From assembly GCA_035999765.1 (NCBI GenBank), contig CP108521.1:4774001-4838000 (forward strand): 64,000 nucleotides of DNA. Reading direction: 5' to 3'. The notes beneath the pieces were generated by a model. That model did no database searches and was not told the DNA's origin. It saw only the letters and a program-made list of their open reading frames with translations. This stretch comes from Streptomyces sp. NBC_01231. Lineage in GTDB: Bacteria; Actinomycetota; Actinomycetes; Streptomycetales; Streptomycetaceae. Made by a program: the position numbers and the translations under genes. The stretch's first letter is position 1. Every line of letters starts with the position of its first letter. Shown one piece after another: positions 33,064 through 45,905 of the stretch.

Positions 33064-33731
33064 TCAAGCGGCGTGGATGAGCCGTTCGGTGGTGATGTGG
33101 GGGCAGGGCAGGTGTTGGTAGACCTCGCGGGCGACGAACCGTTTCAGGCAGCGGATGATGTCCTTCTTGGTCAGACCTTCGGTGGTGCGTCTGGCGACGT
33201 AGTCGCGGGTGCGCGGGTCATGGCGCATGCGGACCAGCACGATGGTGTGCACGGCACGGTTGGCTCGGCGGTCGCCACCTCGGTTGAGTCGGTGCCGGTT
33301 CGTGCGACCCGACGAGGCCGGGAATGGGGCGGCGTCGCACAGGTGGGCGAAGGACGCTTCCGAGCGCAGGCGGTCGGGGTTGTCGCCCGCGGTGGTCAGC
33401 AGCTGCCCTGCGGTCTCGGGTCCGACGCCGGGCAGGGCGACAAGCCGTGGGGCGGCTTGGGCCATCAGCGGGCCGAGATCCGCGTCCGCTTCGGCGATCT
33501 CCTCGCAGAGCCTTTGGTAGCGGCGGGCGAGCCGCCGCAATGCGGTCCTGACCGCGCAGACAGGGTCGGTGAGGTCACCGGCGGGCCGGGACCGGCTCAG
33601 GCTGTCGATCAGGTTCTTGGTGGCAAGGTCACGTAGTTTCTCGCGGACCGCAGCGGGAGCGCCGACGAAGAGGCATGAGCGGGTGTTAGTGACAGCCAGC
33701 GGCCGGCGCGAAGCGGAGTCCCGATCTCAGC
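33064..33731 (-). pseudogene. IS110-family transposase, N-terminally truncated
   Basis: The open frame covers about 220 residues, in frame from an upstream TGA near 33733 to the stop at 33064. It contains SCLFVGAPAAVREKLRDL, ADADLGPLMAQAAPRLVALPGVGPETAGQLL and AHLCDAAPFPASSGRTNRHRLNRGGDRRANRAVHTIVLVRMR, the C-terminal Transposase_20 domain with its serine (PASSGR) active-site region. The N-terminal DEDD RuvC-like domain is missing, so it cannot transpose. IS110 elements lack terminal inverted repeats, so the element boundaries cannot be read. The truncation point near 33730 marks a junction with unrelated DNA. Confidence 0.85.
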
Positions 33732-34135
33732 TAACCGGCCTCCGTGTCCTGCCGCGCCCGTAGACGGCTTCCGGGCGGTGCGGATCATGGAGAACAGCCG
33801 GGAAAGCTCGGGCTTCGATGTCCCTTGGCGGCGTACGAGCGTGCTCCAGCGCCGCGACGACGCTCCCTGTCTCCGACATGGAGACAGAGGTACATCGCCC
33901 GCCCGACCTGGCCCGACGACTGCGCGGAGAAGTCGACTTCGCCGGTGCGATGAGTCCTGAGCCGACGCCCGATGACGCTGCTTGCGGAGCGGTGTGCCGC
34001 CGGGCACGCAGCGGGTCTGCCCGGACCGCACCGGAAGCCGGGAGCGGGAACGCCACGGCCTGGTCGGGATGCTGCCGCCGCCGTGCTTTCGCTGGAGCTC
34101 CAGGGACCGCGATCGCTGGGTTCGCGGGCGGCGCC
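33732..34135. other. Unassigned 400 bp between IS110 fragment and GT39 gene
   Basis: Frames exist on both strands, but none looks like a known protein or carries a convincing start; codon use is mixed. It is likely old degenerate sequence beside the IS110 junction. Confidence 0.5.
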
Positions 34136-36214
34136 TCACCTCTGGGGGGCGCAGTCGTACAGGGTGAAGCTGCCGTCGGTGCGGAGGCCGTAGGCGGTGG
34201 GCCGGATACGGGTGCAGTGGGACTTCACCCAGGTGGTCGTGGGAGTGGTGGGACGCTCGGTGGTGAGCAGCGCATAGCGCAGCTGGTGGGCGGTGACGAG
34301 GCTGCCGAGCTGCTGGGCGGTCGGGAAGGGGGTGCTGCCGGTGAAGCCGCCCATGACGAGGATGGGCTCGGACTTCGCGCGCAGCAGGGGTTCGGCGGCG
34401 TAGGCGGCCTGGGCGGCGAGCAGGTACTTCTCGCCGCGGCGGTGGGTGGTGAGGTAGTCGAGCAGGGCGGCGTCGCGGGCGCTGGGCCGGTCGAGCCCTC
34501 TCCTCCGCGGAGCGCGATGGGGATGCTCGCTGTACGACTTGCCGACCGGACCGGCCATCGGCGAGGCGGTGGCGCCCGCGTAGAGCGGGTCGAGGCCGGA
34601 GACGGCCCAGCCGGCCGGTACGACCAGGGTGGCCGCGATCCCGGCGGCGAGGGCGGCGTGGACCATCCGCGGGGAAGTGCGCGGCCCGCGGCTCCACAGG
34701 CCCACCACGCCGCACAGCGCGAGCATCACAGCGACCGGCAGCAGCCAGGAGACGAATCGGGTCGGCCAGTCGAGCACCAGCGCCCACGCCGCCGTCAGCG
34801 CGATCGCCGCCGGCAGCGTCAGGTGTCGTCGGCCGGTCGCCGCGTGCTCCCCCGCCGGCTCGGCCTCCTGCTCCGGCTCGCCCCTCGGTTCCGGGTCGTA
34901 TCTCGGGTCCCACCCCAGCTGGTACCAGGTCTCCTGCTCGTACCCCGGTTCCGGCTCCTGAGCGTCCCTCGGCTCCTGCTTCGGCTTGTCCCCGGGCTCC
35001 AGCTCCGCCTCGTACTTCGCCTCGTACTCCGAGCGGAAGAGCGCGAGGCCGCCACCGGCCAGCGCGGCGAGCGCCGGGGCGATGACGGCCGTGTAGTAGG
35101 CGTGGTTGCCGTTGGAGACGCTGAACACCACGGTGTGCACGGCCAGCCAGCCACCCCAGATCAGAAATCCCGTGCGCGTCAGGTCGGTTCGCGGTCGCCC
35201 AGCGCGCCGGGCGACGCCCAGGACCGTGGCCAGCACGGCGAGCGGCAGGAACCAGGCGACCTGCGGGCCGACCGTGTCGTTGATCAGCATGTCCCAGCCG
35301 GTGTTGCCGGTGGTGCGGCTGGCGGCGGTGCCCGCGACGGCGCCGAACGCGGTGGAATCGCTGCTGAAGCGGCTCAGACCGTTGTAGCCGAAAACCAGGG
35401 CGAACGGATTGTTGTCGGACGTTCCGTCGAGGTACGGCCGGTTGGCGGCCGGTGTCGCCCAGGCGATCAGTATCCAGAAGCAGGAGACCGCCAGCGCGAC
35501 CGCCCCGCCCAGCAGGAGGCGCAGAGCCCGCTTCAACGGCGCGCCGGGCGCGACGAGTTGGTACACGGCGGCGAAGACCGGCAGCACCAGCCACGCCTGC
35601 AGCATCTTCGCCTGGAAGGCGAGCCCGACCCAGATCCCGCAGGTGATCAGCGGCAGCAGCCGCTCGGTGCGTACCGCCTTCTGCAGCGCTCCGGCGGCCG
35701 CCACCAGGAGCAGAGTGAGCGTGGTGTCCGGGATGGTGGCACGGTTGAGCGCCACGGTGACCGGGGTGAGGGTGAGCACCAGCGCGGCGATCAGCGCGGC
35801 GAACGGACCGGCCCAGGCCCGTACGATCCGGTGCAACAGCCATACGGTGAGCACGCCTTCGACGACCTGCGGAAGCGCGGCCGCCCAGGTGTGCGGGCCG
35901 AACAGCCAGACGGAGATCGCGTCGGGCCAGAAGGCGCCGGGCAGTTTGTCGATGCTGATCGAACCGCCGGCGTCGAGCCCGCCGAAGAAGAACGCCCGCC
36001 AGCTGCCCGCCATCGAGCGTATCGCCGCACCGTAGAAGGGGTGGAGCGCGGCGTGCCCGATGCCCCAGGAGTACAGCACCGTGGCGACGGCAAGCACCGC
36101 GGCGAGCGCCGGGCGCTCCCAGCGGGGGGCGTCTTCCGGCAGGCTGAAGCGGCGGTTCGCCGCCTGGCGGCCTCGGTGCGCGCCGGTGGGCTGGACGGCG
36201 GGGATGGCGGTCAT
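34136..36214 (-). CDS. GT39-type membrane glycosyltransferase (ArnT/PMT family)
   Basis: 692 residues. Residues 38-60 begin the first membrane helix (LAAVLAVATVLYSWGIG); then ALHPFYGAAIRSMAGSWRAFFFGGLDAGGSISIDKLPGAFWPDAISVWLFG is the conserved first external loop and acceptor region of this family. At least ten more helices run to about residue 530. About 375-430 is an unusual Glu/Pro-rich cytoplasmic insert (PKQEPRDAQEPEPGYEQETW). The C-terminal 130 residues form a soluble domain. These proteins move a sugar from a polyprenyl phosphate to an acceptor on the outer face of the membrane. Last gene of the pgs operon, 74 bp after the P60 gene. Confidence 0.85.
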   Translation of the reverse strand: MTAIPAVQPTGAHRGRQAANRRFSLPEDAPRWERPALAAVLAVATVLYSWGIGHAALHPFYGAAIRSMAGSWRAFFFGGLDAGGSISIDKLPGAFWPDAISVWLFGPHTWAAALPQVVEGVLTVWLLHRIVRAWAGPFAALIAALVLTLTPVTVALNRATIPDTTLTLLLVAAAGALQKAVRTERLLPLITCGIWVGLAFQAKMLQAWLVLPVFAAVYQLVAPGAPLKRALRLLLGGAVALAVSCFWILIAWATPAANRPYLDGTSDNNPFALVFGYNGLSRFSSDSTAFGAVAGTAASRTTGNTGWDMLINDTVGPQVAWFLPLAVLATVLGVARRAGRPRTDLTRTGFLIWGGWLAVHTVVFSVSNGNHAYYTAVIAPALAALAGGGLALFRSEYEAKYEAELEPGDKPKQEPRDAQEPEPGYEQETWYQLGWDPRYDPEPRGEPEQEAEPAGEHAATGRRHLTLPAAIALTAAWALVLDWPTRFVSWLLPVAVMLALCGVVGLWSRGPRTSPRMVHAALAAGIAATLVVPAGWAVSGLDPLYAGATASPMAGPVGKSYSEHPHRAPRRRGLDRPSARDAALLDYLTTHRRGEKYLLAAQAAYAAEPLLRAKSEPILVMGGFTGSTPFPTAQQLGSLVTAHQLRYALLTTERPTTPTTTWVKSHCTRIRPTAYGLRTDGSFTLYDCAPQR

Positions 36215-36288
36215 GGCGGTGGTCCTCGGATCAGCAGGTCAGGTCAAGCGGCGATGCGTCGGCGGTGGAGTCACATCGTGGAGTCACA

Positions 36289-37374
36289 TCACAGTCGGCG
36301 GGCCGCCCGGAAGCCGCGGGCGTAGAAGTCGGTGCCGTCCAGCAGCGCGTGGCCCGACAGGTCACCCAGGGTCGGGCCGTTGGCGGCGGAGCGGCTGGAG
36401 TAGAAGCGGTGCCGGCCCTTGTCGTCGAGGCCCATGTATATGCCGACGTGGTCGATGAAGTCCGGCCGGTCCTTGATGATGGCGAAGAAGACCAGATCGC
36501 CGGGTTGCAGGACGTCCAGGTCGGTGGCCTGCCGCGTGCCGGTGTGCGGGATCACCTGGCGGCCGGGACCGTGGGCGGCGATGGCGTAGGCGCGGCGCGG
36601 CAGACCGGTGCCCTTGGTGTTGGTGTTGTGCAGGGGGATGCCCATGCGGTAGCCCCACACCAGACGCTGGAAGCCGGAGCAGTCGACACAGCCGTAGCGG
36701 TCGTTCTCCGGCTGCACGCGCGTGCCGTCCGGGAAGTCCCAGTCGATGCCCAGATAGTCGTAGAAGTCGGACTTCTCGTCGTAGTAGGCGAAGTCCAACG
36801 GGTTTTTGACCGCGGCGTTGCGCGGGCCGAAGTGCGCGGTGCCCGCGTAGCGCACGTCGGCGGTGTTCCGCTTGTCGGGCGCCCCGGCACTGCTGTACTG
36901 GAACGCCACCGCGAAGACGTCCGGGCTCTTGTCGCCGAGTGTCTTGGGGAACCAGCTCTTGAACCACGCGGACTTCTCCATGCCCCGCTGCCACGCGTGC
37001 GGCAGCACGCGCACCCAGGCGTCCGTGGTCACCGTGGCCTCGGTGGTCCGCGGCTCGCTGAAGGTGCGGGCGGGCCCGGTCAGTACGGCCGTACGGGCGC
37101 CGTCGGTGAACGTGGCGAGCGTGCCGCCGTCGGCGGCACGGACCACGGTGCGGCCGGGGGCGGCCAGCCGCTCGTAGGTGTGGGGCCCGGCGGACCGGGA
37201 GTTCGGGCCGGAGCCCGTGCCGTCGGCGGTCGTACCGGCATCGTCGTCGCTGCCCCGCCCGAAGCGGTCCCAGGCGAACCCGCCCGCCGCCCCGGCTACC
37301 GCCACGCCGGCGATCGTACGGAACACGGCGCGGCGGGTCGGGTTGTTGCCTCTGCCGACTGGTGTGGAGTGCAT
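36289..37374 (-). CDS. Exported NlpC/P60 hydrolase in the pgs operon
   Basis: 361 residues from ATG 37374 (AGGAGG just upstream). The N-terminus NNPTRRAVFRTIAGVAVAGAAGGFAW is a Tat-like signal. An SH3b-like part follows (about 75-195, TYERLAAPGRTVVRAADGGT). The NlpC/P60 domain has Cys in RYGCVDCSGFQRLVWGYRMG, His in DFIDHVGIYMGLD, and LQPGDLVFFAI between. These cleave gamma-D-glutamyl bonds in peptidoglycan stems, and some members cut poly-gamma-glutamate, so release or trimming of the polymer made by PgsBC is an attractive role; this is inference from the position in the operon. Confidence 0.85.
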   Translation of the reverse strand: MHSTPVGRGNNPTRRAVFRTIAGVAVAGAAGGFAWDRFGRGSDDDAGTTADGTGSGPNSRSAGPHTYERLAAPGRTVVRAADGGTLATFTDGARTAVLTGPARTFSEPRTTEATVTTDAWVRVLPHAWQRGMEKSAWFKSWFPKTLGDKSPDVFAVAFQYSSAGAPDKRNTADVRYAGTAHFGPRNAAVKNPLDFAYYDEKSDFYDYLGIDWDFPDGTRVQPENDRYGCVDCSGFQRLVWGYRMGIPLHNTNTKGTGLPRRAYAIAAHGPGRQVIPHTGTRQATDLDVLQPGDLVFFAIIKDRPDFIDHVGIYMGLDDKGRHRFYSSRSAANGPTLGDLSGHALLDGTDFYARGFRAARRL

Positions 37375-37418
37375 GACCGATCCTCCTGGAAGTGTCAGGT
37401 GAGAGGGTGCTGGACAGG

Positions 37419-37901
37419 TCAGCCGGTGGGCAGGGCGCCCATCAACAGGCCGGAGACCAGCACGACGTACGTGGCCAGCGTCACCGCCGTGGTCGAGATG
37501 ACCGTGGCCGCCATGGGCTGGCGGACCATCTGGTAGGAGACCAGGCCGGGGACGATGAAGCCGAGGGTCTGTGACGTGTACAGCAGCGGAAACTCGTGAC
37601 TCAGGGCGAGCATCACGGTGGTCTGCGTCAGTACCGCGCACAGCACCACGGCGGCGAACAGCCGCTTGCCGTAGAGAATCACCGTGCGCTGCAACAGCTT
37701 CGTCATGAAGTACGTGAGCGCCGCTACACCGACCATCAGCCCGGCCAACCACACGTCGGTGACGAGTGTGAGGGCGATCCAGCCCGGGGTGATCATTCCC
37801 CCGGGCGAGAGGTTGGTGGTCAGGTAGCAGACGAGCGAGAAGACCAGCCCGAGGGCGATCCCGAGTGCGGCGGTCTGTGCGTTGAGGTCGGGGGGGATCA
37901 C
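37419..37901 (-). CDS. pgsC: PgsC/CapC, poly-gamma-glutamate synthase membrane subunit
   Basis: 160 residues from GTG 37901, whose first bases overlap the pgsB TGA (GTGA). The start IPPDLNAQTAALGIALGLVFSLVCYLTTNLSPGGMITPGWIALTL is typical of CapC/PgsC: the LSPGG(M)xxPG loop after the first helix is the family mark. About five membrane helices in total. In Bacillus, PgsC with PgsB forms the core enzyme that ligates glutamate through the gamma carboxyl and exports it. Translationally coupled with pgsB. Confidence 0.93.
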   Translation of the reverse strand: MIPPDLNAQTAALGIALGLVFSLVCYLTTNLSPGGMITPGWIALTLVTDVWLAGLMVGVAALTYFMTKLLQRTVILYGKRLFAAVVLCAVLTQTTVMLALSHEFPLLYTSQTLGFIVPGLVSYQMVRQPMAATVISTTAVTLATYVVLVSGLLMGALPTG

Positions 37902-39376
37902 GGGTTCCTCATGGACTGGGGCGGAACGTAGGAGTGGTACTGATCGTGGGTGTGTTTCGGTTCGCCCGCGGTGTTCCATTCGTCAGGCCGCTCCTGGCGG
38001 GCGGCGGACCGGCGGGCGAGGTCGCGTTGTTCCGGGATGCGGAAGGCGTACGTCGGTGTCTCCAGCGGTGCCACCCAGCTGTACGGCTCCGGCTCGGGCG
38101 GGCGGGCCACCGAGACACGCGGTCGGGGTACGGCTATCTGGATAGTCTCCTGGTCCAGGCCGTCGCCGGTGACGACGTCGAGCAGGTCCTCGGAGTCGTC
38201 CAGCGGCAGCTCGGCGAGGCATTCAAGGAACAGCTCGCCCTGGCCGTGGATGTTGCCGATCGCCACCAGCGAGGAATCCGGGCCGAGTTCGGCGAGGATC
38301 GCCGCGGTCAGTTCCTCTGGGTCCCGGCGGTCGCCGCCGAGATCCACCACCCGCCCGGTGAAGCCCGCCGGTATCGCGTCCCGGGCGCTCTTGGTCGGGT
38401 GGCCGATCAGGAACACCGTCTCGGCGGCGAGGTCGGGGACGATCGTGCCCATCTGGCCGTTGCGCTCCACTCGGTCCGGGCGGCAGTTGATGACCACGCC
38501 GATCGGCCCTCTGATCGCGCCCAGCTCCTCCAGCTGCTTGACGTTCATCAGCGTCGACTCGGGATCGTTGGCCGCGAAGACGTTGGCGAACCGCAGCCGC
38601 TTTCCGTCGGGGGTGACATAGCGCTCCACGGACAGCACGCCCGGGTCGGGCGGCGCGTCCCACATGCCCTGCATCGCGGTGTGCCGCTCCACGCCGAGCA
38701 GTTCGGCGACGGCGAGCGCGATCGCCACGTTCTCCTTGAAGGTGAACCAGCTGAAGCCCCGCAGTTCGGCGTCGGTCACCGACTCCGGATCGACCGCGAT
38801 CAGCCGGCAGTTCCGCTTGTCGGCCTCCTCCTGGAGGATGTGCAGCCGGTCCTTCTCCGCCGTCACGCACACCCCGCCCACAGGCATCGAGCGGGAGAGC
38901 GAGCGGGCGACGTCGTCCAGCGTCGGCCCCATCTCCTCCAGATGGTCCTCGCGGACATTGCACAGCACGCCGATCGTGGAACGGATCAGCTTCTCCTGGT
39001 TGATCTCCTGCAGCGCGGGCATCACCGCCATGCACTCGATCACCAGCGCGTCCGGCCGGTAGGTCGCCGCCCGCCGTACGATGCCGATCTGCTCGACGAT
39101 GTTGGCGATGTTGAGCTTGCGGTACACCGGCTCCTCGGTGGCATCCGGATGGATGAACCGGGCCGCGGTGCCGGTGGTCTTGGCCACCGTGACCAGGCCG
39201 CCGCCGCGCAGCGCGCCCGCGCACAGCCGGGTGATCGAACTCTTGCCGCGGATACCGTTGACCAGCACCCGCGTAGGTATCTGCTCCAGCGAGGCGAAGT
39301 GCCGCCGCTGCTCCAGGATTCCGGCGATCCACAGCGTGGCGCAGCACATCAGGACGATGACATAGAGGAAGAGCAC
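37898..39376 (-). CDS. pgsB: PgsB/CapB, poly-gamma-glutamate synthase ligase subunit
   Basis: 492 residues. An N-terminal membrane helix (about 1-20, MLFLYVIVLMCCATLWIAGI) is followed by the P-loop TRVLVNGIRGKSSITR (residues 35-50), the Mur-ligase-type ATP site. Further conserved blocks are KTTGTAARFIHPDATEEPV, ECMAVMPALQEINQEKLIRSTIGVLCNVREDHLEEMGPT and FAANDPESTLMN. The extra 80 C-terminal residues (Pro/Arg-rich, PRPRVSVARPPEPEPYSWVAPLE) are beyond the Bacillus length. It activates the gamma carboxyl of glutamate with ATP and forms the amide chain. Ends in overlap with pgsC. Confidence 0.94.
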   Translation of the reverse strand: MLFLYVIVLMCCATLWIAGILEQRRHFASLEQIPTRVLVNGIRGKSSITRLCAGALRGGGLVTVAKTTGTAARFIHPDATEEPVYRKLNIANIVEQIGIVRRAATYRPDALVIECMAVMPALQEINQEKLIRSTIGVLCNVREDHLEEMGPTLDDVARSLSRSMPVGGVCVTAEKDRLHILQEEADKRNCRLIAVDPESVTDAELRGFSWFTFKENVAIALAVAELLGVERHTAMQGMWDAPPDPGVLSVERYVTPDGKRLRFANVFAANDPESTLMNVKQLEELGAIRGPIGVVINCRPDRVERNGQMGTIVPDLAAETVFLIGHPTKSARDAIPAGFTGRVVDLGGDRRDPEELTAAILAELGPDSSLVAIGNIHGQGELFLECLAELPLDDSEDLLDVVTGDGLDQETIQIAVPRPRVSVARPPEPEPYSWVAPLETPTYAFRIPEQRDLARRSAARQERPDEWNTAGEPKHTHDQYHSYVPPQSMRNP

Positions 39377-39391
39377 GCCGATTCCGTCCTT

Positions 39392-41662
39392 CTACCGCTG
39401 GTGGGTGTTCGCACGCGGGGGCCGGGAGGGCCCGGCGGCGGGGCCGGATCTGGCCGCCCGGTCGCGTTCCGCCAGGACCTGGCGCACCAGCTCCAGGCTG
39501 CGGGTGACCGAGCCGATCTCGTCGTGGTTGACCGGATGCAGCACGGTGCGGCGGTCCCCGCCGGCGAGCCGCTCGACGAGCACGGCGACCGCACGCAGCG
39601 GCCGGATCACCACGACGTACAGCCAGCCCAGGCAGGCCGCGCTCACGGCGAGGCCCAGGATGCCGGCGAGCATGGTGCGCTGCTCGGCCTGCACCGCGGG
39701 GATCTGGAGCGCCGCCGCGGGCTCCGCGGTCACCACGTGCCAGCCGAGACGGGCCGTCGGGCCGCTCTGCGCCAGCGGCGCGGCGGCGTCGACCGATGGG
39801 CCGGAGGACGTGTTGTGCACCGCCGAGGTCGCGGTGCCCGCGGTCCCCGGGGCGCCCTGGGTGGCGCGGGCGAGACGGGTCAGGCCGGAGTCGGGCAGCG
39901 ACTGGAAGGCGCGGTAGCCCACGCTCGCCGCCAGCACCTTCTCGTCGCCGTCCGTCACCCAGACGCTGCCCAGCTTCGGCCTGGGCAGAATGGAGTTGAG
40001 CGCCTTCACGTCGATCTCGCCGAACAGGACCACCCCGGCCGCCGGGGCCTGGCCCTTGCCGGACCGGACCTGCGCGTAGGCGGCGATCGCCGGTATCCGG
40101 CCCGAGGTGTTGACGGTGGTGATCCCACCGCCGCCGGGCACGTGGACGAGGGTGCGCAGGGGTGTGTCGCCCACCCGCAGCGTGATGCCGCCTGAGCGGT
40201 TCAGGAGATATAACGAGCGGTACTGCTTGTGGTCGGCGAGGGACTGCCGCAGGACCTCGGTCTGGGCGGCCCGGCTCCTGCCCGACAGACTCGCGGCCGC
40301 TTCGCTCAGGTCGGTGTACGACTGGTCGAGGGACTGCCGGATCCGCTGCGTCGCGATCTCGGTGCGCGCCTGCTGGTCGGCGAGGACCGGAGCCGGAACC
40401 GCGGTCGCGGCGTCCGCCCGGTTCAGCAGGAAGATCATCGGCACCGCCCAGCAGGCCACCACCACCACGCCGACCACGGCCAGAGCCCGGTAGCCCGGCC
40501 CGCGCCGGGCCGGGAACTGCTGCGGGCCGCTCTCGCCGAGCAGTTGCCCGCGCAGTGAGTCCAGTGCCCGTCCGATCCGGGCCAGTTCACCGAATCCGTG
40601 CACCGGAACCGGCCGGGACAGCTCCGCCGCCGCGGTCGGCCCACCCCCGGTCACGCCTCGGGCCAGGCGGCCGGCGGACAGATACAGCCGCAGCAGTGGC
40701 TGCTGCACGGAGAAGTACAGCGCCAGCCCGAGCAACAGCGCGACCATGGCCAGCGTCCCGGCTGTCTCGAGTGCGAAGCGCGAGTAGTCGGCGGCGGGGG
40801 TCGTGGCGGGCGCCGCGCGGGAGGTGAGCACCACCAGGCCGAGGTCGTCGGTCGCGCCCGAACCTGTCGCCGAGGCGACCTGGGCCCAGCCGGCCACGGT
40901 GCGCCGGCTGCCGGTGGTGGTGCCCAGCAGGGTTCCCGAGGCGTCGGTCCCACTCCTCGACCCGTTCGCCGCGCGGGCCGCCACCGCGGACAGACCGCTG
41001 TGGGCGGCGGTTTCGGACGCCGTGCCACGGACTGCGGTGGCGAGCGCCTTGCCGCTCGCGTCCAGCACTTCGGCGGTGCGTCCCTCGCCGTACGCCGTGA
41101 GGGCGGGGAGCGCTTCGGAGACCACCAGCAGCAACTGCCGGTCGGTCCGGCTCGGGGCCTGGTACTGGTCCTGGTCGGGATCGTCCTGCTGCGCGGGCAG
41201 TGTGGCCTTCGCGAAGTACAGCAGTTGCCGGGTGCCGCCCGACGTCACCAGCCGGGGCGGGATCGCTTCGGGCCCGGACGCCGTCCTGGCGACGTCCACC
41301 CCGGTCAGCGGCACCGTCTTGCCGCCGGCCGCCAGCAGTTTGCCGTTGCGCTGGTCGAGCAGCGCACTGCCGAGGGCCGCCTTCCTGGCAGCGGTCAGCG
41401 CTTTGAGCGTGGTCGTGGGGGTCGATGCGCTCGTCGCCGGGTACGCGTCGGCCGTACGGCGTACCGCGCTCGCCTCGGCGTCGATCGCGGAGCGCATCGA
41501 CAGCGCGGTGTCCGCGGCGATCTGCTGTTCCCCGTTCAGCACGGCCTGGGGGACACCCGCGGTGTGGATGCCGTCGAGGCCGATCACGGTCAGGGCGGCG
41601 ACCATCAGCAGGAGTACGACGAGTGAGGCTATCGGCGGGCGGACCCCGCCAAGCATCGGCAT
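39392..41662 (-). CDS. Double-cache, double-HAMP membrane protein without output domain (TTA codon)
   Basis: 756 residues built as two similar halves: TM 11-30, extracellular cache-like domain about 35-290, TM 297-319, HAMP-like helix 320-375; then TM 393-414, second cache-like domain about 420-660, TM 665-686, HAMP 687-735. The protein stops there; no kinase, cyclase, phosphatase or methyl-accepting region follows. It is first in the operon, 15 bp before pgsB. It could sense an extracellular ligand and act on PgsBC directly, or be a scaffold in place of the CapA/PgsA subunit. Codon 484 is TTA (40211-40213), so its production may depend on bldA. Confidence 0.8.
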   Translation of the reverse strand: MPMLGGVRPPIASLVVLLLMVAALTVIGLDGIHTAGVPQAVLNGEQQIAADTALSMRSAIDAEASAVRRTADAYPATSASTPTTTLKALTAARKAALGSALLDQRNGKLLAAGGKTVPLTGVDVARTASGPEAIPPRLVTSGGTRQLLYFAKATLPAQQDDPDQDQYQAPSRTDRQLLLVVSEALPALTAYGEGRTAEVLDASGKALATAVRGTASETAAHSGLSAVAARAANGSRSGTDASGTLLGTTTGSRRTVAGWAQVASATGSGATDDLGLVVLTSRAAPATTPAADYSRFALETAGTLAMVALLLGLALYFSVQQPLLRLYLSAGRLARGVTGGGPTAAAELSRPVPVHGFGELARIGRALDSLRGQLLGESGPQQFPARRGPGYRALAVVGVVVVACWAVPMIFLLNRADAATAVPAPVLADQQARTEIATQRIRQSLDQSYTDLSEAAASLSGRSRAAQTEVLRQSLADHKQYRSLYLLNRSGGITLRVGDTPLRTLVHVPGGGGITTVNTSGRIPAIAAYAQVRSGKGQAPAAGVVLFGEIDVKALNSILPRPKLGSVWVTDGDEKVLAASVGYRAFQSLPDSGLTRLARATQGAPGTAGTATSAVHNTSSGPSVDAAAPLAQSGPTARLGWHVVTAEPAAALQIPAVQAEQRTMLAGILGLAVSAACLGWLYVVVIRPLRAVAVLVERLAGGDRRTVLHPVNHDEIGSVTRSLELVRQVLAERDRAARSGPAAGPSRPPRANTHQR

Positions 41663-41875
41663 ATCGGCGCGGCGGCGGATGCGGTGGCGTCGCGGCGCCC
41701 GAGGTGCGGAGGACAGGAGAGCTGATCCTTCCTCAACTGGCGCCGAGCGCCCAAATGTTCGACAAGGCGAACATTCTAGCGCCTCCCATCACATGGCTAT
41801 CACAGGTTCCCCCCATGTGTCGTACGAGACAACGGGACCCTGCCCGGCGGCGACACATACGAGCCACCACGCGCC
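41663..41875 (-). promoter_or_regulatory. pgs operon promoter region with palindrome
   Basis: Contains ATGTTCG-ACAAGG-CGAACAT (41754-41773), with a TAGAAT -10-like hexamer on the minus strand at 41772-41777 touching it, about 110 bp above the operon start. A regulator bound here would cover the transcription start. Confidence 0.5.
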
Positions 41876-41911
41876 GAAGGGCCGGACCCGCGAACAGGTC
41901 CGGCCCTTCGG
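41876..41911 (-). terminator. Hairpin terminator of the hydrolase gene
   Basis: CGAAGGGCCGGACC (41876-41889) and GGTCCGGCCCTTCG (41898-41911): perfect 14-bp stem, 8-nt loop, 8 bp beyond the stop of the minus-strand gene. Confidence 0.9.
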
Positions 41912-41919
41912 ATGTCCGG

Positions 41920-43263
41920 TCAGCGGACGAAAGAGATCTCCGGATACTTGGTGGAGGGCCCGTCGAGCAGGGTGCTGTGCTTCTTACGCACTTCCTGGTC
42001 GAAGAAGGCGGCGAGGTAGACGCGTTGGATCTGGACCGCCCGGTTCGGGGCGATCGTGCCGTACTGCTCCTGGATCGTGGCCTGGGAGGTCCCGGTCAGG
42101 CGCGCCCACTGGGGCACCAGATACTCGTTGTCGCTGAACGACAGGTGCGCCGCGCCCTTGAGCTTGATGTCGACCCGGTATCCCTTCAGATGCGACCACA
42201 TGGTCCGCCACGAACTGTCGTTGTTGCGGTTGTGCTTGCCGGAGCTGAAGAGCATGAAGGGCCGGTCCAGGTCCTTGCTCGGCGCCGTCCCGAAGAACTG
42301 GCCGTCCAGGTTGGCACCGGCATCGATCCGCTTGTCGAGCTGCATGGAGGTGGCGACCGCCCCGCCGCCCAGCGACCAGCCGAACATGCCGATACGGGAG
42401 GTGTCCACCGACTTCGACAGCCCGGAGGGCAGCGTCGCGCGGCCGGCGTCCGGGTTGCCGCCACTGCTGATCTTGCCGAGCGCGGTGATGACGAACTTGA
42501 TGTCGGCCGCGCGCACCTTGAGCGTGTCGGAGGAGTGGGCGGTCGACGGCATCGTTCTGACCTCGAGCCGGCTGGCCGGGAACTGCACCTCGTTGGCGTC
42601 GTGAGTGTGGTCGACGGTGACGACGAGGTAGCCGCGGCTGGCGAGATCCTGGGCGAGCGCGGTGCCCATCGCGCGGTCCGAGTGCAGCCCGCTCGAGTAC
42701 AGCAGGACGGGCAGCTTGCCGAGCGAGGTCTTCACCGGGGCGAGGACATGGCCCGCGGTTTTCGGCAGGGTCACCTGCTGCGGCGTCAGCCTGCGCGTGC
42801 CGAGGAAGTGGGCGCCGGAGATCGACGGCATCCACGGCGCCTGATAGTGCCCGGACGTGGCGGTGGCCGGATACCAGAGCGACACCATCAACTCGCGCGG
42901 CTTGTTGCCGGGCACGTACGGGTCCGTACGGGACTTGTCGACGAGGTGCAGGCCGACCATGCCCACGCTGTGTTGCCCGGTCGGCGCGGGCATGGTGAGC
43001 TGCTGGGCCGACGTGGCCGTGCGGGCGGACGCGAGCGCCTCAGGGTGTGCGGGCTTGAGCTGCTGCTCGTCGTTCTCGGGCGCCCAGGGCGTGTTCGGGT
43101 CGGGTTGGCCGACCGGGGCCCCGGTGGCCGCAGGCCTGTCGGACGTCTTCCCGGCGGCCATCGCCGGTGTCATCCCCACACCCAGCGCGAGGGCCAGCAC
43201 ACCCGCCGAGCCGACCGCTCTGGCGATCCCTCTTCGACGGTGGTGCGGGCGGCGGTACTTCAT
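41920..43263 (-). CDS. Secreted alpha/beta hydrolase, PAF-acetylhydrolase-like lipase
   Basis: 447 residues from ATG 43263. Signal peptide MKYRRPHHRRRGIARAVGSAGVLALALGVGMTPAMA. The mature protein has the nucleophile elbow MFGWSLGGGAVA (GxSxG with the catalytic Ser), the oxyanion region PVLLYSSGLHSDR, and a likely catalytic His in KGAAHLSFSDNEYL near the C-terminus; an Asp lies in NLDGQFFGTAP. The layout matches secreted actinobacterial dienelactone/PAF-AH type esterases. Substrate is unknown; ester-linked surface polymers or lipids are possible. It has its own terminator, so it is separate from the pgs operon, which starts 257 bp downstream on the same strand. Confidence 0.85.
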   Translation of the reverse strand: MKYRRPHHRRRGIARAVGSAGVLALALGVGMTPAMAAGKTSDRPAATGAPVGQPDPNTPWAPENDEQQLKPAHPEALASARTATSAQQLTMPAPTGQHSVGMVGLHLVDKSRTDPYVPGNKPRELMVSLWYPATATSGHYQAPWMPSISGAHFLGTRRLTPQQVTLPKTAGHVLAPVKTSLGKLPVLLYSSGLHSDRAMGTALAQDLASRGYLVVTVDHTHDANEVQFPASRLEVRTMPSTAHSSDTLKVRAADIKFVITALGKISSGGNPDAGRATLPSGLSKSVDTSRIGMFGWSLGGGAVATSMQLDKRIDAGANLDGQFFGTAPSKDLDRPFMLFSSGKHNRNNDSSWRTMWSHLKGYRVDIKLKGAAHLSFSDNEYLVPQWARLTGTSQATIQEQYGTIAPNRAVQIQRVYLAAFFDQEVRKKHSTLLDGPSTKYPEISFVR

Positions 43264-43748
43264 GAAACCCCCAATGTTGGTCAGCGATCGTAGAACGCGC
43301 GATCGACTGCCGCATACCGTACCGCCGCAGCGACGGCAGTACTCGCGCGTCCCCGATGTCGCCAACGCGACCTCACGTACCGGATGTTGCGCTGCCACGG
43401 CCCGATGACGCGTCGGCGTTCCACGGCACCGACCGGGGGAGGAGAAGCTCAGCGAGCCGGGTGCGACTCTCGGCGGCTTGGCGTCGGTCGTACTCGGCGT
43501 TGACCAGATCAAGAAGCAGCGCCACTGACAAGGAGCCTCACCCATGACGAGCACCAAAGCGCGCCTCACGGCACAGATCACACCAGTTGAGCAGGCGAGC
43601 CAGGACGAAGCCAAGGCGCTGGCGGACGAGGGCAGGACGAGCAAGGCGATCCGCCGACTGCGGAAGGACTCCGGTCTCGCACGGCACACGGCACACAGCA
43701 CACGGCACCGGCCGCTCGGGACCTGCTCGTGGCGATTGCCTCGGCCGG
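43264..43748. other. 485-bp gap with gene remnants
   Basis: Between the hydrolase and the kinase genes. Holds the ribosomal L7/L12-like fragment listed separately and a short CGGCACAC-type repeat at 43681-43712. Nothing else is supported. Confidence 0.5.
43544..43680 (+). pseudogene. Fragment resembling L7/L12 C-terminal-domain protein
   Basis: An ATG-started frame reads MTSTKARLTAQITPVEQASQDEAKALADEGRTSKAIRRLRKDSGL, in which the part after the acidic stretch resembles the EAIKLVREATGL helix of ribosomal L7/L12-type C-terminal domains. From about 43680 the frame runs into a CGGCACAC repeat and loses family likeness. It appears to be a 3-prime truncated gene. Confidence 0.35.
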
Positions 43749-45905
43749 TCAGGTGGGTCCGTCCGGGCTCCGGGAGAAGGCCGTGTCGCCGGCCGTCGCC
43801 ACGAGCGCGTCCTTGACGAGCAGCACTCGCGGCGGGTAGTTCTGCGCTTTGTCCCCGGGGGCGTCCAGCACGGAGGTGCGCCAGACCTCTGCTCCGGTGC
43901 GGCTGTCCAGTGCCAGCAGACGGCCGAAGCGGTTGGAGAAATAGACCCGCTTGTACGTCGCTGACACCGCGGGCGCGGACAGACTCTCCACATCCGTCAC
44001 CTTCTGCCAGAGTTGTTTGCCGCTGTCCGCCGACACCGCGGTGACCGACCCGTCGGACCGGACGAAGTAGACGACGCCGTCCACGAGGGTGGCCGCGCCG
44101 GTCAACGGATGTGCCAGCGGTATCCGTCTGACCTGCCCGGTGTCCGAGGCCACCCGCAGCAGCGCGTTGTACGGCCGTTCGTACCCGGCTTCGTACACGT
44201 CCTTCGCGGTCTGAGGGGCGAGGAACAGTGGCTGCCCGCCGACTGCGCCGAGCGCTTCCGCCTTCTTCGGCAGGGTGGCGATTTCGGTCAGGCTGCCGGG
44301 TCCGAGCTTCATCAGATCGACCGGGGCCTGGCCGGGCTCGGTGCCCGCCGAGCACAGGGCGTAGGGGGCGCCTCCCAGCGCAGACGGAGTGCAGACCTCG
44401 TCCAGCGAGGACGCCCGCCACAGTTCCTTTCCGGACGGCCCGTAGGTCACGAACGACGAGTAGTCGGGGGACATGGTCAGCAGTCCGCCGTCGTACAGGA
44501 CCGCGTCCTGGGACTTGTTGATGTCGCGTTGCCAGCGCCGGTGCCCGGTGGCGGCGTCGAGAGCCACCACGCGCCTGGTCCTGTCGTCCGGATCCTCGTA
44601 CGCATAGACCAGCCCGTTGCGGACGCCGATCGGCTGCACCCCCTGAGGGCGGGTGCCGGTCCGCCACAGGATGCGGCCGGAGGCCGCGTCGATCCTGGCG
44701 GCTGTGAAGCCCGTACCGCCACAGAACAGGGCATTTTCCTCCGTCACGCATCCAGGGTTGTTGTAATCGAGAGGAACACCCTTCACGTCGTACCGCAGCT
44801 TCGTGCGCCACGGCCGCCAGCCGCCGGGCAGTGAGGCGGCACGGCTGGTGGCCGTGGCGTCGGAGGCGGCGGTCTCGGAGGCGGCGGTGGTGTCCGGACC
44901 GGACACGAAGACACCCACCCCGATACCCAGGCCCGTGACGGCCAGCGCCGCGCCGAGGCCGGTGAGCAGCATCCGGGTTCGACGTCCCTTGCGGGTGCCG
45001 GTCGCGGCGCCCGCGGAGGTGGTGGCCGCGCTCGGAGAAGTGGGGTGGCGCCAGGAGTTCGCGGACTGCCCGGTCTTCGGAGACGCGATGGCGTCGGATT
45101 CCGGCAGCGTCTGGAGCATGCGGTGTATGTCCGTCAGTCCCGGCCGTGCGGCCGGGTCCTTGTCCAGGCAGCGCTCGACAATGCCCAGGAGCCCTTCGGG
45201 TACCCCGCCGAGGTCCGGGGTCCCGTGCACCACCTGATAGCCGGTTATGTACGGGCTGTCGGCGTCGAACGGTCCCGTGCCGACGGCCGCGAACACCAGC
45301 AGTGACCCCAGCGAGAACACGTCCGAGGCCGGGGTGACCCCTCGGGGCGAGGCCAGTTGTTCCGGCGACATGAAGGGCGGAGTGCCGATCATCCGCCCGG
45401 TCGTGGTGAGGCTCTGGCTGTCGGAAGCGCGCGATATGCCGAAGTCGATGACGCGCGGCCCGTTCTCGGTCATCAGGACGTTGCCCGGTTTGAGGTCCCG
45501 GTGCACCAGGCCCACCCGGTGGATGTCGCGCAGCGCCTCGATGAGCCCCAGCCCCAGCGCGCGCAGGTCCCGCTGGCTCAACGGGCCTTCCTTCTCCACG
45601 ACTTCGGAAAGGGTGAGCCCCGGCACGTAGAGCGTCGCCATCCACGGCCGGTCGGCGTCCGGGTCGGCGTCCACGACAGGGGCGGTGAAGGCGCCGCTCA
45701 CTCTGCGCGCCGCCGCGATCTCCTGTCGGAAGCGCGTCCGGAGCTCCTCCTCCTGGGAATACGGCCCGCGCACGAGCTTGACCGCGACCTGCCGTCCCGA
45801 AGCGGAGACTCCCAGATAGACGACTCCCATGCCGCCCGCCCCGAGCCGACCGAGAAGGGTGTACCCGCCTATGGACTCCGGGTCCCCGGTGCTCAGGGGC
45901 GTCAT
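43749..45905 (-). CDS. Membrane Ser/Thr protein kinase with PQQ-type beta-propeller sensor
   Basis: 718 residues. The kinase domain has glycine loop LGRLGAGGMGVVYLG, Lys43 (VAVKLV), catalytic HRDLKPGN (134-141), DFG 153-155 and activation-loop GTPPFMSPEQ. A juxtamembrane Thr/Gly-rich stretch precedes one membrane helix (about 305-330, MLLTGLGAALAVTGLGIGVGVFV). The extracellular part (about 350-718) is a PQQ-like beta-propeller: blades such as GRILWRTGTRPQGV, ALDAATGHRRWQRDI, VSADSGKQLWQKVTDV and LDSRTGAEVWRTSVLD. Such kinases would relay extracellular state to phosphorylation inside the cell. No substrate gene is obvious. Confidence 0.92.
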   Translation of the reverse strand: MTPLSTGDPESIGGYTLLGRLGAGGMGVVYLGVSASGRQVAVKLVRGPYSQEEELRTRFRQEIAAARRVSGAFTAPVVDADPDADRPWMATLYVPGLTLSEVVEKEGPLSQRDLRALGLGLIEALRDIHRVGLVHRDLKPGNVLMTENGPRVIDFGISRASDSQSLTTTGRMIGTPPFMSPEQLASPRGVTPASDVFSLGSLLVFAAVGTGPFDADSPYITGYQVVHGTPDLGGVPEGLLGIVERCLDKDPAARPGLTDIHRMLQTLPESDAIASPKTGQSANSWRHPTSPSAATTSAGAATGTRKGRRTRMLLTGLGAALAVTGLGIGVGVFVSGPDTTAASETAASDATATSRAASLPGGWRPWRTKLRYDVKGVPLDYNNPGCVTEENALFCGGTGFTAARIDAASGRILWRTGTRPQGVQPIGVRNGLVYAYEDPDDRTRRVVALDAATGHRRWQRDINKSQDAVLYDGGLLTMSPDYSSFVTYGPSGKELWRASSLDEVCTPSALGGAPYALCSAGTEPGQAPVDLMKLGPGSLTEIATLPKKAEALGAVGGQPLFLAPQTAKDVYEAGYERPYNALLRVASDTGQVRRIPLAHPLTGAATLVDGVVYFVRSDGSVTAVSADSGKQLWQKVTDVESLSAPAVSATYKRVYFSNRFGRLLALDSRTGAEVWRTSVLDAPGDKAQNYPPRVLLVKDALVATAGDTAFSRSPDGPT

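Follow-up and report, generated by a model that had tools for sequence, protein, structure and literature searches.

A conserved PgsBC-type synthase module of Streptomycetaceae accompanied by a tandem dCache-HAMP protein that ends without an output domain

Why should the genes of a polyglutamate-type synthase be preceded by the gene of a receptor-like membrane protein? The question is raised by five genes on the minus strand of a 64,000-nucleotide stretch of Streptomyces sp. NBC_01231 (contig CP108521.1; hereafter the window), which is part of a one-contig genome of 11.3 Mb. The first gene of the run (39392..41662) encodes a 756-aa protein composed of two tandem TM-dCache-TM-HAMP units. It is followed by a PgsB/CapB-type amide ligase (37898..39376; 492 aa, GTG start), a PgsC/CapC-type membrane protein (37419..37901, GTG start), an exported NlpC/P60 (C40) enzyme (36289..37374) and, as last gene, a 692-aa GT39/YkcB-like glycosyltransferase (34136..36214). 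From the cache-HAMP gene to the GT39 gene the spacing is a 15-bp gap, a 4-bp overlap, a 44-bp gap and a 74-bp gap. Families and spacings had all been claimed in the original prediction; profile matches and coordinates confirm the former, and the latter are correct to the single base. A consensus scan of 33400-43800 found no promoter-like site and a single terminator-like site, which is at 33620 of the plus strand and outside the genes. Just upstream of the module lies a platelet-activating-factor-acetylhydrolase-like hydrolase (41920-43263, minus strand), a family that is found near the module, on either strand, in 28 of the best 80 of 354 related loci described below. A Ser/Thr kinase with a PQQ-type propeller lies at 43749-45905 on the minus strand; its top NCBIfam model is AfsK, with a score far below cut-off.

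The identity of the synthase core is the simplest part of the answer. PgsB is far above the NCBI equivalog cut-off (TIGR04012, 386.3 bits vs 222.7), its P-loop G[IT]RGKS is present in all 81 alignment rows, and it has a C-terminal extension of about 100 aa past the family model. The adjoining PgsC, whose GTG start overlaps the PgsB stop by 4 bp, matches PF14102 (2.8e-32; 112 bits, Pfam cut-off 27) but falls below its own NCBI equivalog cut-off (TIGR04011, 69.4 bits vs 96.45), and the product may therefore differ from plain gamma-polyglutamate. For neither protein did a search of solved structures, at the limits used, give a sequence match. With the PgsBCA/CapBCA synthase of Bacillus the locus shares the PgsB and PgsC families in adjacent genes, whereas it has no CapA and instead carries the upstream tandem dCache-HAMP gene, the NlpC/P60 gene and the GT39 gene. 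Since CapA is absent from the operon, we file the locus as a PgsBC-type core and not as a PgsBCA system. The cluster probably makes a polyglutamate-like surface polymer.

The protein that sets this locus apart resembles a receptor up to the point where a receptor would be expected to act. It was originally described as double-cache, and this holds more strongly than claimed, as the structure model shows two TM-sensor-TM-HAMP units in tandem. A fold search with the model matched the dCache fold for the second unit, and the top matches include ligand-binding domains of amino-acid chemoreceptors. A crude string test found R.WY, the core of the amino-acid dCache motif, in none of the 38 cache-protein rows. 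The HAMP domain was recognized by Pfam in two stretches (3.6e-11, cut-off passed), and Pfam and NCBIfam scans found no output domain after it; the protein stops 27 residues past the HAMP match (729 of 756). HAMP domains are known relays to kinases, cyclases and chemotaxis proteins. Compared with dCache-HAMP chemoreceptors and histidine kinases (PctA and relatives), the window protein has the same dCache-fold sensor, TM and HAMP in the same order, but it differs in having two tandem units and in lacking an output domain. Among the 120 matches listed of 174 database relatives, there were no receptor fusions to PgsB or to an output domain. In one metagenome protein (P0205), possibly an assembly artefact, CBS/MgtE_N sequence is fused to the C-terminal portion of the single-unit form of the cache-HAMP protein. 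Over 38 rows, conservation is highest in the cytoplasmic N-terminus (0.82), the second HAMP (0.78, with 16 invariant residues) and the last TM (0.76), and lower in the first HAMP (0.67) and in the two dCache domains (0.52 and 0.57). High conservation at the N-terminus, last TM and second HAMP would be expected if output were directed inward to a fixed partner while the sensor diverged.

Such a partner is suggested by the neighborhood of the gene. PgsB scored over the cut-off in 38 of 150 Streptomycetaceae genomes, 21 of a phylum sample of 396 and 14 of a class sample of 394, these samples sharing genomes. In the 38 Streptomycetaceae genomes there are 40 PgsB loci, and in all 40 the cache gene adjoins PgsB on the same strand. 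The cache-protein profile matches 40 of the 150 genomes, namely those 38 plus G023 and G028, where PgsB had no match. In these two genomes a contig ends no more than about 200 bp from each of the four cache copies, and for this reason their PgsB probably falls in an assembly gap. NlpC is located downstream in 39 of the 40 loci; the sole exception is G138, whose contig starts less than 600 bp from PgsB. Among named genomes a scan found 354 relatives, of which the best 80 by similarity to the window PgsB were kept, all of them Streptomycetaceae by name; this set favours near relatives and shares genomes with the 150-genome sample. A search for the same partners had been proposed with the original prediction, and in these best 80 of 354 it finds cache-HAMP, PgsB and PgsC in every locus and NlpC in 77, with L056, L062 and L100 having no detectable NlpC. 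In 77 of the 80 the order of the four genes is the same as in the window. A dCache-HAMP protein without output domain is thus the constant partner of this PgsB subtype. The cache protein had been listed as one of the five genes of an operon; the genes stand, while the cache protein turns out to be the defining part, and GT39 and CapA are lineage options.

The NlpC/P60 enzyme is almost as constant a partner. Alignment of 38 sequences placed its start at ATG 37374 rather than at GTG 37752. It matches PF00877 with 28.5 bits (cut-off 23), its structure model is confident for residues 66-362, and in Foldseek this model came closest to a C. difficile autolysin of the NlpC/P60 type, represented by its catalytic domain (7cfl, 3.7e-5); a profile search of solved structures returned NlpC/P60 enzymes as its named matches. 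The catalytic His is kept in 78 of 78 rows and the catalytic Cys in 73, the window copy included. In L079, L088, L097, L102 and L107 the Cys is replaced by Ser (four) or Ala (one), and these may be non-catalytic versions. A twin-arginine-like leader, present in the window copy, was found with a loose pattern in 28 of 28 loci having NlpC and a downstream GT39 gene, in 3 of 28 CapA loci and in 10 of 21 others. In the 150-genome sample the NlpC profile also matches eight genomes without PgsB or cache gene, at 71-208 bits, and the linked copies score at least 439 bits. PgdS and other NlpC/P60 gamma-glutamyl hydrolases resemble the window protein in the NlpC/P60 domain, with its catalytic Cys and His kept here; the window protein differs in having one catalytic domain, an N-terminal beta domain of its own and a position inside the synthase run. 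The linkage suggests that the enzyme acts on the PgsBC product. Family scores and conserved linkage thus give good support to the original proposal of a PgsBC-type synthase that has an NlpC/P60 enzyme as partner.

Outside Streptomycetaceae, the neighborhoods of PgsB in 19 genomes fall into two subtypes. Four loci (L124, L150, L158 and L159) have the cache gene beside PgsB and no adjoining CapA; the L124 record spans just 3.2 kb and contains only part of its cache gene. The remaining 15 have no cache gene, and in 14 of them a CapA match lies within about 2.5 kb of PgsB (partial in G285), the exception being G205, which has neither. PgsB is 65-70% identical to the window protein in the four remote cache-type loci and 35-43% identical in the 15 cache-less loci. 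The PgsB tree, in which the branch that separates the subtypes is implausibly long, was used only for the split and for grouping. The cache proteins of L150 and L158 have a single dCache-HAMP unit (395 and 374 aa), and that of L159 has two HAMP stretches and fits the tandem profile like the Streptomyces proteins. A database search with the single form listed 82 proteins; an organism is given for only a few of these, and it is an actinobacterium each time. In L159, too, the NlpC family is linked to PgsBC, and a divergent gene of the same family occurs in 3 of the 15 cache-less loci (L145, L146 and L151). The actinobacterial PgsB-PgsC-CapA loci thus share PgsB, PgsC and in some cases this NlpC with the window, but differ from it in PgsB sequence and in having no cache-HAMP gene. 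In L145, the one locus scanned downstream of CapA, a gamma-glutamyltranspeptidase (PF01019) follows CapA. The PgsB match of G285 (L157) contains one in-frame TAG. Corynebacterium glyciniphilum plasmid pCgly1 (L171) has annotated PgsB, PgsC and gamma-glutamyltransferase, and the stretch displayed contains no cache gene. The observation as a whole, a synthase variant that is conserved together with its own receptor, is real and stronger than first described.

What might the receptor do there? We give an even chance to a PgsBC-type polymer synthase that is gated or assembled by a dedicated receptor subunit and accompanied by an exported gamma-glutamyl hydrolase. By analogy with their families, PgsB would activate and join glutamate using ATP, with PgsC as its membrane partner. 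The tandem dCache-HAMP protein, in the same membrane, would use its dCache domains to bind a small molecule outside the cell. Its C-terminal HAMP and its conserved cytoplasmic N-terminus would pass its state directly to PgsB/PgsC, and in this way the protein, which itself lacks any kinase or second-messenger domain, could switch or license synthesis. The exported NlpC/P60 enzyme would cut or transfer gamma-glutamyl bonds in the product, and the GT39 protein co-encoded in this lineage may modify the product or its carrier. A more specific version, to which we attach somewhat less confidence, is that an extracellular ligand gates the synthase directly through the HAMP-ending receptor, with neither kinase nor second messenger and with the polymerase itself as the output, and that this receptor was once one dCache-HAMP unit and became doubled toward Streptomyces.

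The most serious alternative is that the cache-HAMP protein is no signal receptor at all but a structural or export subunit doing the extracellular job of Bacillus CapA/PgsA. The distribution of CapA is what makes this worth considering, as the 19 loci outside the family split into 14 with CapA only, four with the cache gene only and one with neither, and in 52 of the best 80 of 354 Streptomycetaceae loci the cache gene occurs without detected CapA. However, the other 28 of these 80 have both genes, with CapA, recognized by profile, upstream of the cache gene and on its strand. The two proteins also belong to families of unrelated fold (PF09587 vs HAMP with dCache), and CapA works outside the cell, whereas conservation of the cache protein lies on the cytoplasmic side. 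We reject the cache protein as a mere CapA replacement in this simple form and keep it for CapA-less loci; on the whole the structural role is unlikely, at about one chance in four. The original statement that CapA is missing was right for the locus, as PF09587 has no match inside the window, but it needs qualifying: the rest of the genome gives three PF09587 matches, of which one is marginal, and CapA is present in the sister loci just described. The CapA-like protein at 1518389 of the window genome shares 41% identity with the linked CapA of L068, to which the other linked CapAs are 61-87% identical. In 39 of the best 80 of 354 loci, 27 of these with CapA, the module is adjoined by a gene, usually on the opposite strand, of a family of about 320 aa (L072:3332-4297); the one member searched, from L072, had no Pfam or NCBIfam match and no significant match among solved structures.

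Gating of the synthase by the receptor leaves the nature of the product aside, and a second alternative concerns precisely this. The module could make some gamma-glutamyl product other than a free polyglutamate capsule, either a short oligomer attached to the wall or a copolymer of glutamate and sugar, the sugar being supplied in this lineage by GT39. The GT39 assignment itself is sound (PF13231 3.8e-19, PF24878 3.4e-20; PMT_2 69.9 bits with a cut-off of 26.1, YkcB_C 72.2 bits with a cut-off of 27). A further match, to Trypan_PARP, was rejected as a composition artefact, since it scored 31.4 against a cut-off of 100 and fell on an acidic proline-rich linker. Across the best 80 of 354 loci the gene is present in 37, directly downstream on the same strand in 31 and upstream in six, three of these on the opposite strand. 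S. natalensis ATCC 27448 carries a module of the GT39 version. In 27 of the 28 downstream-GT loci that have NlpC it begins 44-89 bp after NlpC by profile edges, and this tight placement, together with the sub-threshold PgsC and the 35-43% identity of PgsB to its 15 cache-less actinobacterial counterparts, speaks for a product of this kind. On the other side, PgsB is far above its equivalog cut-off, and 43 of the best 80 of 354 loci yielded no GT39 of this family; the records of two of the 80 (L057 and L086) break off shortly after NlpC. We hold this alternative to be slightly less probable than the structural one. The same 43 loci led us to reject GT39 as a core part. The sugar decoration put forward originally keeps its gene, but its link to the polymer comes from position, and that the GT39 protein adds sugar to the polymer is only a guess. 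CapA and GT39 occur together in none of the best 80 of 354 loci, and neither was found in 15; contig ends cut the expected CapA position in L039 and L069 and the downstream GT position in L057 and L086. On the PgsB tree, two changes are needed for the downstream-GT loci and eight for the CapA loci, and the exclusivity is thus at least partly inheritance. Several species have two modules (L042/L106, L043/L074, L036/L088 and L071/L079; also G035 and G048). The four named pairs are of different types, and the types may do different jobs.

It is improbable, in our estimate, that the cache-HAMP protein signals to some other, unlinked protein such as a kinase and is merely co-regulated with the synthase. 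A HAMP domain normally relays to a separate domain, and this would give it one. Yet no other pairing matches the constancy of that with PgsB, seen in 40 of 40 loci and in 80 of 80 (best 80 of 354), and apart from PgsC and NlpC no neighbor family occurs in more than 39 of those 80. Ordinary neighbors without functional link can practically be discounted: Streptomyces genomes are rich in such gene families, but the order is kept in 77 of the best 80 of 354 loci, across remote actinobacteria and on plasmids, and the adjacency in all 40 and all 80 loci leads us to reject the cache gene as a chance neighbor.

Nine plasmid records have a PgsB match, six of them from Streptomyces, and three of these six from S. 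clavuligerus. The public annotation of a Streptomyces sp. NBC_01454 plasmid lists the same five genes in the same order (HAMP domain-containing protein, pgsB, PgsC/CapC, NlpC/P60 and glycosyltransferase family 39). Plasmid pCLA1 of S. clavuligerus ATCC 27064 has CapA, the cache gene, PgsB, PgsC and NlpC, and in an S. finlayi plasmid record, which ends at PgsB, CapA and the cache gene precede it. The original prediction knew of no described Streptomyces system with this gene set; the set itself is not unique to the window genome. In the open-licence literature, judged mostly by titles and the beginnings of abstracts, we found no Streptomyces PgsBC system and no cache-HAMP partner of PgsB. The relevant passages of two papers combining capsule synthesis and Streptomyces mentioned only E. 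coli capsule regulation (PMC4125116, PMC13033682).

If the proposed reading is true, the module points to a glutamate-containing surface polymer in Streptomyces, of which we found no description. Its presence, together with CapA, on a plasmid of S. clavuligerus ATCC 27064 makes it testable in a laboratory strain. The pairing of a cache-HAMP protein with the synthase is also relevant to the question of how PgsBC could function when its operon lacks CapA. A HAMP-ending receptor that travels with a polymer synthase would, if true, be a new way of coupling the outside of the cell to the building of its wall or capsule.
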